From a virus: a stretch of 20,258 nucleotides of DNA. The notes beneath the pieces were generated by a model. It searched no databases and was not told the DNA's origin. It worked only from the letters and a program-made list of their open reading frames with translations. Position 1 is the stretch's first letter. Each line of letters begins with the position of its first letter. The position numbers were made by a program, and so were the translations under genes. Below are positions 12,623 to 20,258 of this stretch, piece after piece. The DNA is taken from IMG/VR virus record IMGVR_UViG_3300020169_000152, positions 1 to 20,258 of that record. The stretch is one strand, 5' to 3'.

Positions 12623-14266
12623 TTATAAGGTTCTCCCTAATAATACTTTTAAATCAATTCGTTGTATGGAATAAGGACTTCCATCTATAGTTGCATTCAA
12701 TCCCATCGTTAAAACTCTACCGTTACCTGTACCATTGGCGTGTGGTGTCTGTATGTACACACCAGAGGCATATTCCGTTCCTACGTATCCTGTTTGTCCT
12801 GCTGCCGCAGTAAACTCACCTATGTTAAACTCACCTTCATTAGGCTCTAACGCGGGAGGAGTAATAGAAAAGTTACCTTCCGTATTAGGGTTATAATCAT
12901 AATACCATCTTAATATAGAGTCTTCACCTAAGTTACCCGCTACTGATACTTCCAGTTGTTTTAAAAACTTAATGTTTGCAGGTTTACCAAAGTCCATTGA
13001 ATTACTTTCGTACTTCATTATGTACGTTTTACGTTCAAGGGCGGCAGGGGCTATAACACTACCGCCAATTGCTCTTGAAGCATCATTGTATCCTGTATAT
13101 TTGTAAACACCAAATAGTTTACCAAACAAAATGTCACCGTTACGTCTACGTAGTAAACATTTAGGATTTATATCAGACCAAGTAGTTACCCTAGCTGAAC
13201 CGTCTGGCAAGAAACTTCTCATGTCAAAACAATAAGCTAAGTTTTCGTCAGGTAATGACAATACATAGAAGGCTTCCTCAGGACTATACACAGACTTAAT
13301 AGGACCTGAGTGTCTTCCTACCTCAAGTATTAACTCATCTCTAATGTTTTTACTGATGTCTCGCATAGGTGCAGACTTTTCTTGTATAACACGCCCTAAC
13401 GTCCTTACACCATCTTTAGACAAAAATATAATGTCACTACCTGTATTTTGCACAGAGTCTCTCTCAATGCAACCTACGCCCTCAATAACATCTTGTAAAA
13501 TCATAGTAGCAGGACTTTCAGCACCAGAGTAAATTAAGATACAATCTTTACAGAATATAATCAAGAAACCGTTGTGTGCCGCCAGTGCAGTTACTTCATC
13601 AAACCCACTAGGAAATACTGTACGTAAGTCTAAAGAACCTGATGTTCCACCATTCCAATGACCGCCAAGTAGCGTGTCAGACCAATATACTGTGTGTTTA
13701 TTTTCAGCAACATCAGCCGCCCACAGTTTACCGTATGCGGCTATAATCTCATTGGCTTGTGGTGCTGTGCCATTTGTGTGTTGCGCGTTTGAAAAAGCTA
13801 CTAAATCACCACTACCCTCATATATTAAAGGTTCGTGTCCACGTTGAAAAAAGTATGCTTTATTAGCAAGACTAGCCATCTTCCAGTTGTTAGCTGTTGG
13901 ACTGTAAGTTGCAGGTCTTACATTATCAGGGTTTTCAATATCTTTATAAATATATCTATGACTTGGACCACTACCGCTTGCTTCTCCTCCCGCAAAGAAA
14001 ATAGTAGACACCCCTAAATTATCCACAAACTCGTCTATAAATTCTACAGGGTTTGTATATAAAAAACTTGAAGCAGGTACATCAAGCGTATAGCTTTCAG
14101 TTAGTAAAACACTTCCTTTACGAGAACCAATACGACCAAACTTGTCAATGACACAGTTGTTAGCCGTAGCCGCAAAAGAAGTATCAATAGCCGTAGGCGA
14201 ATCCTGATTGTTAATACCAGAAAACGCAGGTGCTACAATAGATACTGCTTGTAGTTGTTGAGCCAT
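12623..14266 (-). CDS. Tail nozzle / stabilisation protein, TTPB- or P22 gp10-like (547 aa)
   Basis: A beta-rich protein starting MAQQLQAVSIVAPAF, with ANNCVIDKFGRIGSRKGS near residue 40 and repeated blade-like segments (LANKAYFFQRGHEPLIYEG, AYGKLWAADVAENKHTVYWS, TALAAHNGFLIIFCKDCILIYSG, DIIFLSKDGVRTLG). These suggest a beta-propeller, as in tail tubular protein B and P22 gp10, which close the portal channel and form the tail nozzle. It follows the adaptor-like gene, the usual order. I prefer the ATG at 14266, which overlaps the previous stop (TAATG) and gives the familiar MAQQ start, over the ATG at 14281, which adds MDGLL and would overlap the upstream gene by 16 bases. Confidence 0.6.
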   Translation of the reverse strand: MAQQLQAVSIVAPAFSGINNQDSPTAIDTSFAATANNCVIDKFGRIGSRKGSVLLTESYTLDVPASSFLYTNPVEFIDEFVDNLGVSTIFFAGGEASGSGPSHRYIYKDIENPDNVRPATYSPTANNWKMASLANKAYFFQRGHEPLIYEGSGDLVAFSNAQHTNGTAPQANEIIAAYGKLWAADVAENKHTVYWSDTLLGGHWNGGTSGSLDLRTVFPSGFDEVTALAAHNGFLIIFCKDCILIYSGAESPATMILQDVIEGVGCIERDSVQNTGSDIIFLSKDGVRTLGRVIQEKSAPMRDISKNIRDELILEVGRHSGPIKSVYSPEEAFYVLSLPDENLAYCFDMRSFLPDGSARVTTWSDINPKCLLRRRNGDILFGKLFGVYKYTGYNDASRAIGGSVIAPAALERKTYIMKYESNSMDFGKPANIKFLKQLEVSVAGNLGEDSILRWYYDYNPNTEGNFSITPPALEPNEGEFNIGEFTAAAGQTGYVGTEYASGVYIQTPHANGTGNGRVLTMGLNATIDGSPYSIQRIDLKVLLGRTL

Positions 14267-14919
14267 TAGCAAGCCGTCCATACAGTTTCAGAAGGGAATC
14301 GTGCCGCATCCATAGCTATAGCGTCAGCTAATGTAGCGTCAGCAATAGCAAACAGTTCCTGTGCCGATGTACCACCTGTCTCACCACGTTCACGGGAAGC
14401 AAGAGCAACAGCATATTGAATCACTGGTGCTGATGGTACTCCAAGTACTGTAGCATCAGCAGTAAATGGTGCTGTTCTATCCACCATGTTAAAACGTAAT
14501 GTATATACACCGTCAGGAATAGGAAATACATCTACAGTTAAATAACCATCGCTATTAAAACCATTCCAAGCATAGTAGTTAGGTGCGCCTTTAGGTGGTT
14601 CAGAGTTTAAGAAAACACTGTTCATATAAGAAGAAGTAGCTTGTCGCATAAAGAAGTTAGACGTATCGTTAATTACATCTAGCGTCTTACTGGCTGTACC
14701 TGTACCGTTTATATTATAACTAAATGTATTAGCTACTGTGTTGACAGTAAACGTGTTACGTAGCGAAGACCAGTCCCACGAATCCTCTACGATACGTTTA
14801 GCATCATTAACAAAGTCACCGATAAGTTTAGTATAGCCGTCAGCACTGCCTACAGCAGTAGTTACTTCGTTTTCTCTTAGTCTTCTTAGTACACTATTTA
14901 CTAGTTGTAAGTAAGTCAT
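14266..14919 (-). CDS. Tail adaptor protein, TTPA/gp4-like (217 aa)
   Basis: The protein opens MTYLQLVNSVLRRLRENEV and has a helical FVNDAKRIVEDSWDWSSLR segment near residues 52-70. It then has beta-rich sequence and ends with LASRERGETGG (about 172-182) plus a short helix. Small podovirus head-tail adaptors (tail tubular protein A, P22 gp4) typically show an N-terminal helix, an aromatic W-x-W/F motif and a conserved ARERGE-type helix, so this is the likeliest role. It would form the ring between portal and nozzle. It lies immediately upstream of the propeller-like nozzle gene. Start and stop are coupled to both neighbours by one-base TAATG overlaps. Confidence 0.6.
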   Translation of the reverse strand: MTYLQLVNSVLRRLRENEVTTAVGSADGYTKLIGDFVNDAKRIVEDSWDWSSLRNTFTVNTVANTFSYNINGTGTASKTLDVINDTSNFFMRQATSSYMNSVFLNSEPPKGAPNYYAWNGFNSDGYLTVDVFPIPDGVYTLRFNMVDRTAPFTADATVLGVPSAPVIQYAVALASRERGETGGTSAQELFAIADATLADAIAMDAARFPSETVWTAC

Positions 14920-16238
14920 TATCCATACCTTCTTGTGTTTGTCGGACTAAGCATTCTTTGTGTAGACTTAATCTCTGTGTCAAATTTAAATAACTCTTTG
15001 TCAAACAGTCCTTCGACCTGTGAAGGTTTCCTAGCCCCTGACATCATGCCTCTTGTGTCTCCTAATCCACTTACTGCTGTTTCTAACGCGTCGCCTAAAG
15101 GACTGTCCACAGCGTCTATAATCTCATCCACTACGTCTACGATAGGCTCTCCTACAGTTTCTATAGCTTCCTTCAAAGGAGTTGACAAATCTTCTATCGG
15201 TGCTGTTACACTCTCTACGCTTTCTTTAATAGGCTGTAATAAAGTATCATCTATTCCACGACCTAAGTCTCTAATGTCACCTATGACACCTGTGTCTGGT
15301 AACTCAAACTCAGGCAAGTCTACACCTAAAGCATCTAACGCTTCACCGCCGAACTCTTTAAGTAATGCCTCTTTGCCGCTACCGCCTTTTAGTAGTGTTC
15401 CCTGTACATTACCTAAACCTTCAGTAAATGTATTAGGGTCTAGTCCAAACAAATCAGCATCAATACCCACGTTTGCTAGGGTGTCTTCAATTAAATTAAC
15501 AGGAATGTCAGCAGTAAAACCTGATACAACATCACCTACTACATCTCCTACGTATCCTTTAGCCGCTCCTTCAATAATATCTCCAATGTCACCACCTCTA
15601 GCCGCAGACATCAAAGCCGCGCCTTGTGGTCCGCCGTATATAGACATAGCTAAATTCACTAAAGGATTAGACAATATCTTATCAGACATCTGCATTTCAG
15701 GTTCTCTGTACTGATATTGATTGTACTGCCCTACTTCACCACCTGTTGTTTGCCAATCAAAACCCTGAGCCGGCATATTAGAATTAAAATCTATGTGTGT
15801 GCCTGTGCCTGTGTTTAAATAAACATCAGAACCACCAATAGTTTCTCCTTCTCCATATACTTTTCTACTTAAACTAATATCGTTAGCTTTTAAGTAATCA
15901 TTCATTACGTCTGATTGACGTTCTACTGCATAACGTAAAAAGTTATTAGGGTCTTTAATGAAACCACCGTCTTCAGTCAATAGTTTGTACGTACTACCTT
16001 TATTAAAATCTAAAGGTCCTACATCAATAAATTCCTGTATTTCGTTATATGCGTCAGAACTTTTTTCGTATTCTTGTTGATAGTTTTTAAGTGATTTAAT
16101 ATATACTTCATCTGCAAAACTTTTAGCTTCACTGAAAGAACGCGGAGTGTTGTATTCATATCCTGTGTTTTGTCTACCTACAGGATTTCCAACACCGTCA
16201 TTCATAACGTGTTCAATTCTAAACTCTAGTTTTGACAT
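14919..16238 (-). CDS. Uncharacterised protein with amphipathic Pro-punctuated repeats (439 aa)
   Basis: I do not recognise this protein. The N-terminal ~180 residues are hydrophilic with mixed alpha/beta character (SFSEAKSFADEVYIKSLKNY, DVMNDYLKAND). A Gly/Ala segment follows at 191-240 (LVNLAMSIYGGPQGAALMSAA, GYVGDVVGDVVSGF). Residues about 333-391 form a degenerate repeat of P-[IL]-x-[DE]-type units: LQPIKESVESV, APIEDLSTPLKEAIETV, EPIVDVVDEIIDAV, SPLGDALETAV. The C-terminus is basic (RMLSPTNTRRYG). It is very acidic overall. Placement between holin and tail adaptor suggests a virion or tail component. No endolysin motif is visible. GAGGGA precedes the ATG, which overlaps the holin stop (TAATG). 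Confidence 0.75.
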   Translation of the reverse strand: MSKLEFRIEHVMNDGVGNPVGRQNTGYEYNTPRSFSEAKSFADEVYIKSLKNYQQEYEKSSDAYNEIQEFIDVGPLDFNKGSTYKLLTEDGGFIKDPNNFLRYAVERQSDVMNDYLKANDISLSRKVYGEGETIGGSDVYLNTGTGTHIDFNSNMPAQGFDWQTTGGEVGQYNQYQYREPEMQMSDKILSNPLVNLAMSIYGGPQGAALMSAARGGDIGDIIEGAAKGYVGDVVGDVVSGFTADIPVNLIEDTLANVGIDADLFGLDPNTFTEGLGNVQGTLLKGGSGKEALLKEFGGEALDALGVDLPEFELPDTGVIGDIRDLGRGIDDTLLQPIKESVESVTAPIEDLSTPLKEAIETVGEPIVDVVDEIIDAVDSPLGDALETAVSGLGDTRGMMSGARKPSQVEGLFDKELFKFDTEIKSTQRMLSPTNTRRYG

Positions 16239-16636
16239 TATCTATCCCTCTGTACTTTCTTAGTCTTCTCTACAGTTCTCATTGCACCTAAACCAAGCAT
16301 ACCCATTAGTACTGGCATCATAGTAGCCATATCTAAAACAGGGATTTCAATGGTAGAATCGGCAAGAGCAAGCGTAAAATTTGCCATCGGGATAAGAATG
16401 TACTGACTCGCAAGTCCAATACAACAAGTCCAACCAACAGCAGGTCTCCAACCCGACACAAACAGGCTTCTGTGTGCCGCTTCTGTCTTATTAACTTCAA
16501 GTTGCGCTTTCGCAAGTTCCTGCGCGTGTTTTTCAGCCATTGTCGAAAGTTCAAAGGCGATAGCATTCTTCTTGTCTTTATCCTCTATGAATTTGTCAAG
16601 TAAACCTGAAACAGGTCCGATTAGTTGTTGTATCAT
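16238..16636 (-). CDS. Holin, three-transmembrane GTA/3TM superfamily (132 aa)
   Basis: The protein matches the 3TM holin pattern: an N-terminal amphipathic helix (MIQQLIGPVSGLLDKFIEDKD), a charged coiled segment (EKHAQELAKAQLEVNKTEAAH), and the signature HRSLFVSGWRPAVGW (55-69). Hydrophobic segments follow at about 66-90 and 104-119, and a basic tail (VEKTKKVQRDR) ends the protein. It would form membrane lesions that time lysis and release or activate an endolysin. GAGG sits 5 bases before the ATG and overlaps the upstream stop. It is flanked by another membrane-associated protein, which supports a lysis or envelope cassette. Confidence 0.85.
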   Translation of the reverse strand: MIQQLIGPVSGLLDKFIEDKDKKNAIAFELSTMAEKHAQELAKAQLEVNKTEAAHRSLFVSGWRPAVGWTCCIGLASQYILIPMANFTLALADSTIEIPVLDMATMMPVLMGMLGLGAMRTVEKTKKVQRDR

Positions 16637-16643
16637 AAATGCC

Positions 16644-17063
16644 TCACTTAAGGGGATTAGACAAGTAATCCATACCTTGCCATAAATCCTCTACCTCTTT
16701 AGTCAATGTCTTTATCTTACCATCAACATCGCCAATGTTTTCTATTATAATCTCAGCCTTAGCTACTGTGCCTTTCATAGCCTCTATCTCATTAGCTAGC
16801 TTAGAAACGTCTGTATTGAGTTCTAACAGCTTTTCTTGCTGACTTAGTAGGGTATCTAACCTTGTTCCTAAAGTCCCTAGATTCTCACGTATGGGGCTTA
16901 TATTAGGTATCTTCTTAGACTCCAACGCTTCTAGTCTTGAGTACAAACTAGATGCAGTCCAGACTGTCCCACCGATGCTAGTACCTATGGTCATCACAAT
17001 GGCAATCCACACACCTTTGAATGACGTACCATTAATGTTTAGTTCTGACTTCTCTAGGCTCAT
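16644..17063 (-). CDS. Membrane-anchored coiled-coil protein (139 aa), possible spanin-like or lysis accessory
   Basis: One N-terminal hydrophobic segment (about residues 18-40, GVWIAIVMTIGTSIGGTVWTA) is followed by a long heptad-like region (about 59-130: LGTLGTRLDTLLSQQEKLLEL, VSKLANEIEAMKGTVAKAE, KIKTLTKEVEDLW). A single membrane anchor with a long coiled coil next to a holin resembles an inner-membrane spanin in outline. No lipoprotein partner with a lipobox is visible, and the family is not recognised. The ATG overlaps the stop of the exported protein upstream (ATGA). Its own ribosome site is weak, so translation probably depends on coupling. Confidence 0.65.
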   Translation of the reverse strand: MSLEKSELNINGTSFKGVWIAIVMTIGTSIGGTVWTASSLYSRLEALESKKIPNISPIRENLGTLGTRLDTLLSQQEKLLELNTDVSKLANEIEAMKGTVAKAEIIIENIGDVDGKIKTLTKEVEDLWQGMDYLSNPLK

Positions 17064-17896
17064 AGTTCTACGCAGTTAGTTTCATTCATAAAGCAATCAT
17101 AACTCTGAGCCGTAGGACCAGTCAAATAATACTCCGACTCGCTACCTAAGGTTAGTACTTCAGCTTCAGTCACATACAAGTCTAAACCGTAGTTCTGACC
17201 GTTAAGATAAACTGCTGTGAGGTTTCTAGTAGTATTATAACCCATAGCCACCCATTGAGCATTAGCATCATAAAAGATGTTAGTTTGCTCTGCTGTAGTG
17301 TTAGCGTTTTCTATGCCTTGCTCTAAGAACTCTACAGCTTCTTTGTTACCCGCTACCGCTAGGAATGCACTAGCGTTATTAGCGTGTGTCTCTATGTCAT
17401 CCATACTGGTGTTGTACGTATCTACTTCTTCCTGAGTGATTGTCAACACTTCTATGTTGTTTTCTACAAAAGTCTGTACTTCAGCTTCCTCTTGAGGACT
17501 AGCGGCTGACTCTGCTACTTCCGCTACTTCTTGTACAGCAATCATGTCAACTACTACTTCAGTAAATACACCAATGGCTTCATCCATCATGTCCAACTCA
17601 GTGTATGCTTTTTCCTCAAGTACAGTCTGTAAGTCACCGAAGGCTTTGTAGTTAGACATACCAGACAATGCGTTGTTGTACGCCTGTAGCTGTTCTGCAC
17701 TGATGTGCGCTGTGCTTGACATAGTACCATCAGACAACCCTGAGCCTGTATAAGAGTACTCTTGTGCCGCACCTACAAGTTTAATACCTCTGTCTATCTG
17801 GTCAACAATAGCGTTGGAGGTGTCAATAAGGCTGTCTAACTCACTGCTGTGTGCTACGGAACTTAGCACTAACAGAGATAATATCATCTTCTTCAT
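17060..17896 (-). CDS. Exported acidic protein with signal peptide (278 aa), function unknown
   Basis: A clear Sec signal peptide opens the protein (MKKMILSLLVLSSVAHSS, likely cleaved before ELDS). The mature part is very acidic and Ala/Thr/Asn-rich, with helical stretches (QEVAEVAESAASPQEEAEV, ITQEEVDTYNTSMDDIETH). It ends with the only two cysteines, Cys268 and Cys275, which could pair in the periplasm. I do not recognise a family. The start is ATG 17896: a long GGAGGAGAGGA site (17902-17912) lies 5 bases upstream, whereas an in-frame TTG at 17914 would place that site inside the gene. The first 56 bases overlap the upstream exported-protein gene in another frame. Confidence 0.75.
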   Translation of the reverse strand: MKKMILSLLVLSSVAHSSELDSLIDTSNAIVDQIDRGIKLVGAAQEYSYTGSGLSDGTMSSTAHISAEQLQAYNNALSGMSNYKAFGDLQTVLEEKAYTELDMMDEAIGVFTEVVVDMIAVQEVAEVAESAASPQEEAEVQTFVENNIEVLTITQEEVDTYNTSMDDIETHANNASAFLAVAGNKEAVEFLEQGIENANTTAEQTNIFYDANAQWVAMGYNTTRNLTAVYLNGQNYGLDLYVTEAEVLTLGSESEYYLTGPTAQSYDCFMNETNCVEL

Positions 17897-18461
17897 CTGT
17901 GTCCTCTCCTCCAATGTTTAGTATAGTGTTGTACCATTCGGTGTTGCCTGTGTAGTCAGGTATATATACTTCTGGTTGTCTCTTCATTATTAATACTGCA
18001 CGTTTACCGACAACTAACTTACCGTTGCTCAGTATGGGGCAAGGTGTTCCTGACAAGAACATACTCTTCCATACTTCCACTGCTTCACACATACGGGCTA
18101 CTGCCGCTACTTTCATTCCTAAGTCTGATAACAACTTAGCGTCCCTTCTACGGTCACAGTTAGGGTCTACTTCATAACTACCGCTTGACAACCCTATTCC
18201 TACTGTTTGCAATGAACCGCCTGAACCCTTAAGGCAAGTGTCCATACCGTTGGACATATAGCTAGGACTAATGGCAGAGCCTACTGGTATCTCGCTACTG
18301 CTTCCTGCACCATTGTATGTGTTACTTGTTGACGTATCCGTTGTGTTATTATTACTGTTTGTTGTGCTGTTGTCCCCATGAAACGTATTCAGAGAACCTT
18401 CCTGTGCATTATCAGCCAGTGTAACCCAACTGAACAACATTAACAAACAAAATAGTCTCAT
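17841..18461 (-). CDS. Exported four-cysteine protein with signal peptide (206 aa), function unknown
   Basis: Signal peptide MRLFCLLMLFSWVTLA is probably cleaved before DNAQ. A Ser/Thr/Asn linker follows (STTNSNNNTTDTSTSNTYNG). The body has four cysteines (76, 102, 125, 141), consistent with two disulfides in the periplasm or on the virion. Conserved-looking patches are PVGSAISPSYMSNG, DPNCDRRRDAKLLSDLG and GTPCPILSNGKLVVGK. Similar proteins occur, as I recall, in other marine phages without known function. The last ~25 residues are acidic and are encoded where the next exported-protein gene begins. The ATG overlaps the stop of the 52-aa membrane gene by one base. Confidence 0.75.
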   Translation of the reverse strand: MRLFCLLMLFSWVTLADNAQEGSLNTFHGDNSTTNSNNNTTDTSTSNTYNGAGSSSEIPVGSAISPSYMSNGMDTCLKGSGGSLQTVGIGLSSGSYEVDPNCDRRRDAKLLSDLGMKVAAVARMCEAVEVWKSMFLSGTPCPILSNGKLVVGKRAVLIMKRQPEVYIPDYTGNTEWYNTILNIGGEDTDEEDDIISVSAKFRSTQQ

Positions 18462-18619
18462 TACTTACGTAAGTTCTGTACTGTAGGTGATTCCCATATA
18501 CGTAAACCTAGCCATATAATAGTAAACAGACTGGCTACAGGAGGCAACCAAGCCGCTAAAGACATAAGTCCTGTTGATGCCGCTAGTACGTCTACGGCTT
18601 CTTTTGCTTCGTTAGTCAT
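18461..18619 (-). CDS. Small membrane protein (52 aa), possible holin-like
   Basis: The protein begins MTNEAKEAVDVLAASTGLMS and has a central hydrophobic stretch (about 20-42, LAAWLPPVASLFTIIWLGLRI). It ends with IWESPTVQNLRK. One hydrophobic segment, broken by Pro-Pro, is visible. Short proteins with a MTNE.KEAVDVL start and an IWxGxRIxE...VQ end recur in phage lysis regions, and a holin-type or membrane accessory role is plausible. AAGGA, overlapping the stop of the fibre gene upstream, lies about 8 bases before the ATG. Its stop overlaps the start of the exported four-cysteine protein (TAATG). Confidence 0.7.
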   Translation of the reverse strand: MTNEAKEAVDVLAASTGLMSLAAWLPPVASLFTIIWLGLRIWESPTVQNLRK

Positions 18620-18629
18620 GGTTATTTCC

Positions 18630-19490
18630 TTATGCGTTTTCTAAAGTTGTAATACGGGCAGTTAAAGCATCTATTAGTTCTTTTTGGTCTTGTATAGTTT
18701 TAAGCATAGGTACAATAAGTTTCTTGTAATGTACACCCGCCAAATCAGTACCGTTGTAAAATACTAACTCATCATTAACAGTCTCTACGTCTTCAGCAAT
18801 TAAACCATAGTCAAGTTCAGAACTATATGTATCAGCGTATGATTCTGTTATAGTTCCGTCTTCATTTATTGTTTCTTCTCTGTCTTTATAGTTAAAAGAA
18901 ACAGGGTCTAAAGTATATATCCAAGATACGTCTGTTAAGTCTGCAATGTTTGCTTTACTTTCTCTAACCGATGAAATATAACCTAGTTGACCATCACTTT
19001 TTATATGCACATCACGAGTACTTCCTGTTAGTGCATCATAAAAAACATCAGGAAAAAGCACTTTACCATCGTAAGTAAAATGAGCCACTAAGTTATCAGT
19101 AGAAGATACGCTTCCGTTTTGTGTATATATCTTCCAACTTGAAAATGCTGTTGATGTCCAATAACTGTGTGTACTACACTCAATAGAGCCTATGTTATCC
19201 CATTGAGCCGATGAAGTTTGTCCGTTTACTTGTATTCTAGCAAGAACGTCCGTACCACTAATATTGTCTGTATGGTCAAGTATTAAAGTAGGCTCACTCT
19301 TTTCAATGGTCAAGTTATTAGTTAAACTAGATGAAGCATCAAACTTTTCAAACTCTAAGTCTACTACAGATGAGCCGCCTGAACCACCAACAAATAGTTT
19401 CTTGTCAGCAATGTTTACAGCAAGTTCACCTTGAGCAAGACTGCTAGGAGTTCCTGACGATGTTTTATTTTTTGTAATGATTGTAGCCAT
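18630..19490 (-). CDS. Short tail fibre/spike with C-terminal S74 chaperone domain (286 aa)
   Basis: The N-terminal ~45 residues (MATIITKNKTSSGTPSSLAQ, then GELAVNIADKKLFVGGSGG) are the repeat-like opening found in phage fibre proteins. A beta-rich middle (about 50-165) ends in SDGQLGYISS. The C-terminus is an S74 intramolecular chaperone: SVRESKANI (Ser174 and Lys179 in the S-x4-K spacing of the autocleavage dyad), DYGLIAEDV, YKKLIVPMLKTIQDQ and a coiled-coil end. After trimerisation the chaperone would normally cut itself off. At 286 aa it is unusually short for a receptor-binding fibre. It lies between the 95-aa gene and the membrane-protein gene. Confidence 0.85.
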   Translation of the reverse strand: MATIITKNKTSSGTPSSLAQGELAVNIADKKLFVGGSGGSSVVDLEFEKFDASSSLTNNLTIEKSEPTLILDHTDNISGTDVLARIQVNGQTSSAQWDNIGSIECSTHSYWTSTAFSSWKIYTQNGSVSSTDNLVAHFTYDGKVLFPDVFYDALTGSTRDVHIKSDGQLGYISSVRESKANIADLTDVSWIYTLDPVSFNYKDREETINEDGTITESYADTYSSELDYGLIAEDVETVNDELVFYNGTDLAGVHYKKLIVPMLKTIQDQKELIDALTARITTLENA

Positions 19491-19506: not shown

Positions 19507-19794
19507 TTACCACGGTGTCCCTACTGTTACAGACGGACTAGCTTGTTCCGCTAGGTCTGCGTCTAGTGAAGCCTCAAGTGCTTCTGTGTCTAATGCTTCC
19601 TGTACCCATGCGATTACATTAGCTTCAGTTAAAGCATCATAGGCTGTATAACCATCTGCGTCTGCGTCAGGAGTAAAGCCTACAGTACCGTATGAAGTAG
19701 CTACGTTCTCACCAGAGGCTTTGTTTACTTGCCAATGGGCTACGATAACGCCACCGTCTGTGTTGCTTTCTAAAGTTGAGATTGTAAAGTTCAT
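19507..19794 (-). CDS. Small phage protein next to fibres (95 aa), function unknown
   Basis: The protein starts MNFTISTLESNTDGGVIVAHWQ and contains YGTVGFTPDADADGYTAYDAL, a helix EANVIAWVQEALD, a second helix EASLDADLAEQ and the end TVGTPW. This outline, an immunoglobulin-like beta half then a WVQ helix and a final PW, recurs in small genes beside phage fibre or tail genes. A structural or assembly role is inferred from position only. Its ATG directly follows the stop of the S74 fibre (TAAATG), with GGAG 9 bases upstream. Confidence 0.75.
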   Translation of the reverse strand: MNFTISTLESNTDGGVIVAHWQVNKASGENVATSYGTVGFTPDADADGYTAYDALTEANVIAWVQEALDTEALEASLDADLAEQASPSVTVGTPW

Positions 19795-20258
19795 TTATTT
19801 ATTCTCCAGTTGTGCAACTCGGTTGCGTAATGTTTGTACTTCTTTAATTAACATAGGTACTAACTTGCTGTAGTCAACACCCATCATATCTTCTGAATCT
19901 TCTGGTTGATGTACTGCTTCAGGTGCAACAGTTGCTAACTCCTGTGCAATTACACCGTAGTCCTGATGTGAGCCATCAGCCTTCCAGTCAAACTGTCTAA
20001 TTTGTATAGCATCAACCTTGCTACCTGCATCAGTAGAGTCTGTAATGTTTTCCTTAAGGCGTTCATCGGATGAGGTGTTATAATTAATACCTGTTGTACC
20101 GTTTTGTGTAATTGTTCCTATCGTATTAGTCCCGTGTCTAAACGCGGCATAATAATTACCATTAGCAACAGAAGAAGCATGACCTACGTTTATATAATCC
20201 ACCGTGCCAGTTTGAACGGTAACCCCACCGTTAAAGGCATATTGGTCAGTAGTACCCA
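19795..20258 (-). CDS. C-terminal part of an S74-type tail fibre (partial, at least 153 aa)
   Basis: The frame is open to the right edge (codon phase at 20256) and the visible part begins GTTDQYAFNGGVTVQTGT. A GTG at 20202 looks like a start but sits inside beta-rich fibre sequence that continues upstream, so the gene is cut by the window end. The S74 domain is textbook: SSDERLKENI (Ser and Lys of the autocleavage dyad), QIRQFDWK, DYGVIAQELATVAPEAV, DYSKLVPMLIKEVQTL and a C-terminal coiled coil (RNRVAQLENK). It is a receptor-binding fibre whose chaperone is released after trimer folding. It is paralogous in domain type to the downstream fibre, though the two S74 sequences differ widely. Confidence 0.88.
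   Translation of the reverse strand, partial: GTTDQYAFNGGVTVQTGTVDYINVGHASSVANGNYYAAFRHGTNTIGTITQNGTTGINYNTSSDERLKENITDSTDAGSKVDAIQIRQFDWKADGSHQDYGVIAQELATVAPEAVHQPEDSEDMMGVDYSKLVPMLIKEVQTLRNRVAQLENK

Follow-up and report, generated by a model that had tools for sequence, protein, structure and literature searches.

What do the small exported and membrane proteins encoded beside the holin gene of a marine phage contribute, when no endolysin and no spanin lipoprotein is seen among them? The question is raised by a block at positions 16238-18619 of IMG/VR record IMGVR_UViG_3300020169_000152 (the window: the whole stretch analysed, 20,258 bases, a fragment of a ~35-kb marine phage), which an earlier note, made from the letters alone, had singled out as a possible lysis or envelope system. 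The five coupled open reading frames (ORFs) on one strand that the note described are present in the ORF listing, and are transcribed in the order m52, A, B, C, holin:

18461..18619, minus strand: m52, a 52-residue protein with a single predicted transmembrane (TM) segment; first gene of the block
17841..18461, minus strand: protein A, 206 residues; predicted signal peptide, Ser/Thr/Asn-rich region, C-terminal four-cysteine domain
17060..17896, minus strand: protein B, 278 residues from the ATG at 17896 (284 if from the TTG at 17914); predicted signal peptide, long-helix periplasmic protein
17841..17896, minus strand: out-of-frame overlap of genes A and B, 56 nt
16644..17063, minus strand: protein C, 139 residues; N-terminal TM segment, coiled coil, C-terminal NPL
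16647..16658, minus strand: codons for the C-terminal [N/S]PL(K) motif of C
16238..16636, minus strand: 132-residue holin with three TM segments (3TM), GTA_holin_3TM / phrog_3427

Judged by sequence comparison, A-B-C is an undescribed, widespread and strictly conserved cassette of marine phages. The function that we favour for it, tentatively and at somewhat less than an even chance, is that of a non-lipoprotein, spanin-equivalent outer-membrane-disruption system. A more specific version, in which A-B-C would be a lipoprotein-independent three-component outer-membrane-disruption machine of SAR11 and Roseobacter phages with A and C conserved and B interchangeable, is more doubtful.

The A-B-C cassette and its proteins

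Each of the 182 IMG/VR loci with four or more genes downstream of A has both B and C. A profile scan places C 0-2.8 kb after A in 260 loci (a count that includes some overlapping loci), and the loci without C all end within 2.5 kb. Once loci with identical A genes are removed, ~246 loci of A are left. The cassette is found in unrelated phages of Pelagibacter and Roseobacter, hosts that include the most abundant bacteria of the ocean; the cultured phages CRP-207, CRP-810, HTVC023P and HTVC033P are among the carriers. Between these phages B is exchanged for an unrelated protein, and A and C stay. The portions of the literature on CRP-810, HMO-2011-type and HTVC023P-type phages that were consulted contain no description of A-B-C, and a DNA search of phage records with the block gave no match. 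No family or fold library explains A or B. The earlier note was right to single out, next to the holin gene and coupled to it, a set of exported and membrane proteins that is undescribed. Median ratios of nonsynonymous to synonymous substitution (dN/dS) are 0.215 for m52, 0.126 for A, 0.114 for B, 0.144 for C and 0.139 for the holin (0.213 for the tail adaptor, for comparison). With values of 0.11-0.22, all five block genes are under purifying selection, which is strong for A-B-C, and are therefore not chance ORFs. m52 lies directly before A in 67 of 92 window-type loci; it has no family match in profile searches and is ~50% similar to hypothetical proteins from three other phages.

Protein A is homologous to phrog_20531, a family of unknown function. 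The four body cysteines that the earlier note saw in this 206-residue exported protein (C76, C102, C125 and C141) are present, and are invariant in 67 of 67 sequences. By a crude rule, 115 of 246 A sequences have a signal peptide (23% of background ORFs do), and the assignment draws in part on N termini read by eye, such as MKTPLILIMLLLLTSAAFA. The structure model of A is weak (predicted local distance difference test score, pLDDT, 61.7; N-terminal part disordered), and neither a sequence search of the PDB nor Foldseek against the PDB at E<=0.001 yields a match. Homologues come from IMG/VR and from 11 phage records, including six with Pelagibacter and two with Roseobacter hosts. Cellular homologues were sought by pattern in 84,980 species genomes, in two scans; the first gave none and the second one contig of a metagenome-assembled genome, so that A appears to be a phage protein. 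(That sole match, L320, is a 4.7-kb contig binned as Marinimicrobia, and possibly a phage fragment.)

The Ser/Thr/Asn-rich stretch of A invites comparison with curli. Related pelagiphages encode phage curli (type VIII secretion system) modules, which likewise consist of exported proteins in marine phages (PMC9599517), and A-B-C might be a reduced module of that kind. CsgG was detected in 0 of 30 A-B-C-bearing records, while the positive controls matched; the curli reading is thereby effectively refuted, has next to no probability left, and was rejected.

Translation of B most likely starts at the ATG at 17896, which stands behind GGAGGAG. The protein that had been counted as 284 residues is, as the earlier note had it, predicted to be exported, with 278 residues the likelier length; its C-terminal cysteine pair, also pointed out earlier, is found in the window and is absent from the Roseobacter-phage homologue examined. 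By rule, signal peptides are assigned to 162 of 166 window/Roseobacter-type and 54 of 59 pelagiphage-type B sequences, again over the 23% background. B of the window/Roseobacter type is helical and ~280 residues long (model pLDDT 83.5). It has no PDB match, either by sequence or by Foldseek at E<=0.001, and its model matches just three uncharacterised phage proteins in BFVD. Pelagiphage-type B (~430-610 residues; it contains an acidic stretch and a region that putatively binds carbohydrate) is not homologous to it on profile comparison; two records annotate a carbohydrate-binding domain in this type, and it matches CBM_4_9 weakly.

These properties of B enter into the main rival reading, according to which A-B-C changes the infected cell's surface or envelope, for receptor masking, surface display, adhesion or the exclusion of superinfecting phages, with glycans or the outer membrane bound by B and the complex anchored by C. 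Export of A and B, the composition of A and the carbohydrate-binding annotations of pelagiphage-type B are consistent with it, as is the ability of the cassette to lie away from lysis genes; exchange of B with retention of A and C is what one would expect of a surface-facing part. On the other hand, the genes share the late strand with structural genes, and several lineages have them immediately next to a holin or endolysin gene. Genes for exclusion are as a rule early ones, which also counts against an envelope function, and we consider it unlikely on balance.

The block is placed between fibre (S74 chaperone) genes and tail adaptor genes, and on that account its exported proteins could belong to the virion or its tail, with genes that stand among those for the fibres. 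A protein assembled in the cytoplasm would not be expected to carry a signal peptide, however, and the signal peptides predicted for A and B make ordinary tail parts unlikely. Searches for structural families and for PDB structures also gave no match; a virion role is very improbable.

Gene C is joined to gene B by an ATGA overlap. Its 139-residue product confirms the membrane coiled-coil protein of the earlier note: one predicted TM segment near residue 17 is followed by a predicted coiled coil (coiled-coil-type profile matches). Positive charge is higher before than after the TM segment in 97-99% of window/Roseobacter-type sequences, and the positive-inside rule accordingly predicts an N-in/C-out topology, the arrangement of an inner-membrane spanin (i-spanin). 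The C terminus is NPL or SPL in nearly all of the 260 loci, and window-type and pelagiphage-type C are related on profile comparison (E 8e-7). Two Roseobacter phage records label homologues of C as (putative) lysozyme: CRP-207 gp73 (L133:3292-3873) and CRP-810 gp51 (L152:7243-7665). Both have one TM segment, a coiled coil, an NPL end and no apparent catalytic domain, and recognizing them as homologues of C corrects the annotation.

Weak similarity of C to phrog_736 and to DUF2730 (PF10805) suggests that A-B-C might regulate the holin or the endolysin, as an antiholin, as a lysis-inhibition sensor or in the manner of a releasin. Counted in favour of this is RI of phage T4, a disulfide-bonded regulator of lysis in the periplasm. 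One DUF2730 protein, gp25 of phage Mu, acts as a releasin (PMC9239132), and C is like it in being a short TM and helical protein encoded near lysis genes. Nevertheless, C scores 16.7 bits against DUF2730, under the 24.9 cut-off, and 0 of 30 A-B-C-bearing records contain DUF2730 at E<=0.01. The predicted topology of C is the opposite of that of the releasin (N-out/C-in), and the M15 endolysin of these phages (see below) is a soluble protein with no signal-anchor-release segment. Identification of C as a DUF2730 releasin was rejected on score and predicted topology, and a regulatory role of any kind is quite improbable.

Holin and endolysin

The 132-residue protein matches PF11351 over residues 4-116 (70.1 bits; cut-off 24.8) and phrog_3427 at 4e-36. 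It belongs to the GTA_holin_3TM family over the full domain, with nothing notable that differs, and bears out the 3TM holin of the earlier note; we are confident of this assignment, with hole formation taken from family membership.

The proposal of a lysis system that lacks an endolysin proved wrong. It holds for the window itself, which ends before the terminase region (no terminase, portal or capsid gene is found in the record), with the consequence that no endolysin is seen there, and it fails for the phage group. In longer relatives, whose B proteins are 66-98% identical to that of the window, a gene for a 118-residue protein is flanked by the large terminase gene on one side and a putative gene for the small terminase on the other. 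(Two of these genomes are complete, as their direct terminal overlaps show: 127 bp in G002 and 106 bp in G003.) The protein matches Peptidase_M15_3 (PF08291) with 44.0 bits (cut-off 23.2), and that of G001 matches the phrog_894 endolysins at 1.8e-32; inspection of M15 protein P0007 identifies the zinc-site motifs THAQGIAAD and VHVD, with His, Asp and His ligands. An M15 endolysin scores above cut-off in seven of eight longer window-type records (G001-G003 and G005-G008). It is like other phrog_894 enzymes in its site motifs and its place beside the large terminase gene, and differs in being encoded, in this phage group, far from the holin. On these matches the group has an ordinary holin and an ordinary M15 endolysin.

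None of the five block proteins, nor the 439-residue protein that follows the holin (14919-16238), gave an endolysin match in profile searches, and the idea of an endolysin among them was rejected. The 439-residue protein has no family match; its counterparts in related phages are 441-742 residues long and down to ~25% identical.

Outer-membrane disruption as the remaining lysis task

With the holin and the endolysin assigned, the outer membrane is the lysis task left unfilled, and A-B-C is the obvious candidate for it. The case for an outer-membrane role proceeds by elimination and association. The usual agent would be an outer-membrane lipoprotein (o-spanin), and a scan for lipoboxes finds none in A, B or C of the window. 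In the longer relatives scanned it finds no credible lipobox protein (the candidates are short, spurious or antisense ORFs), in agreement with the earlier remark that no spanin lipoprotein motif is visible. A unimolecular spanin has an N-terminal lipobox and a C-terminal TM segment, and A and B of the window lack the former. In G001, the late strand encodes m52, A, B, C and the holin as its exported or small membrane proteins. Among 677 phages, Kongari et al. counted 91 in which they found no spanin (PMC6139136). The signal peptides, the topology of C and the absence of an o-spanin are all read from sequence, and we infer an outer-membrane-disrupting or envelope-altering role from two things, the anatomy of the proteins and the association of their genes.

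C can be likened to the inner-membrane member of two-component spanins (lambda Rz/Rz1, T4 PseT.3/PseT.2): it is a predicted N-in/C-out inner-membrane coiled-coil protein, encoded with exported partners by overlapping late genes near the holin or endolysin. Unlike these systems, A-B-C comprises three proteins, has no lipoprotein partner, has exported partners of 206 and 278 residues in place of a short lipoprotein, and gives no significant and specific profile match.

The mechanism that we would propose is as follows. Lysis would be effected by a conventional holin (16238-16636) together with a peptidoglycan endolysin of the M15 type, whose gene adjoins that of the terminase, and A-B-C, as a late, co-oriented, overlapping cassette, would do the third job of Gram-negative lysis without a lipoprotein o-spanin. 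C, inserted in the inner membrane, would extend its coiled coil into the periplasm, and its conserved [N/S]PL end would dock on secreted, disulfide-stabilised A and/or on B; A/B would in turn attach to the outer membrane or to that membrane's inner face. Once the endolysin had removed the wall, the complex would collapse and the membranes would be broken or fused. That A, B and C form a complex and disrupt the outer membrane is our hypothesis.

The association with lysis genes recurs. In 66 window-type loci the next gene after C is that of the holin; in HTVC023P, gene C and the M15 gene overlap; and in HTVC033P, genes for an amidase (PF01510) and a TM protein lie upstream of A-B-C. S28-C10 (Autographiviridae) has A-B-C just before the terminase, and at the equivalent site its sisters HTVC200P and HTVC119P have a lysozyme and small membrane proteins. 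(Pelagiphage proteins without family matches are called holin-like here by inspection only.) Located beside holin or endolysin genes and available in cultured carriers, A-B-C is a concrete, testable candidate.

Several observations weigh against outer-membrane disruption. G007 has overlapping M15 and holin genes, and m52-A-B-C remains apart from both, with the fibre genes; the cassette is thus not tied to lysis genes. The T4-like phage Mosig has A-B-C beside primase and ribonucleotide reductase genes, and no lysis gene was identified within ~4 kb in 56 of 72 Roseobacter-type loci. Spanin matches of C are weak and nonspecific: C proteins of several records match the family phrog_739 at 1e-5 to 1e-2, and the search also gives matches in 11 of 14 control genomes. 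Finally, pelagiphages have a second pair of proteins, a TM-coil protein and a small exported cysteine protein, that could be the spanin; an extra TM-coil protein and a 71-residue protein are often encoded between their genes A and B. In HTVC200P (L321:5212-5786) and HTVC019P (L323:5104-5678), which lack A, a TM-coil protein is followed by a ~70-residue two-cysteine protein just before the terminase genes. It is possible that this is an unrecognised spanin-like pair, and that many pelagiphages which do have A carry it too, in the interval from A to B.

Other genes of the window

The plus strand of the window encodes SSB-like, primase-helicase, DNA polymerase, Cas4-type exonuclease and ribonucleotide reductase proteins; the minus strand carries the late genes. 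A 552-residue protein (12623-14281) matches the 'amidase' family phrog_5107 and also head-closure and virion structural families, and the amidase label looks like a mislabelling. Two further proteins (18630-19490 and 19795-20256) have an S74-type chaperone-like C-terminal sequence, and a DUF7936 protein (19507-19794) is encoded between them.

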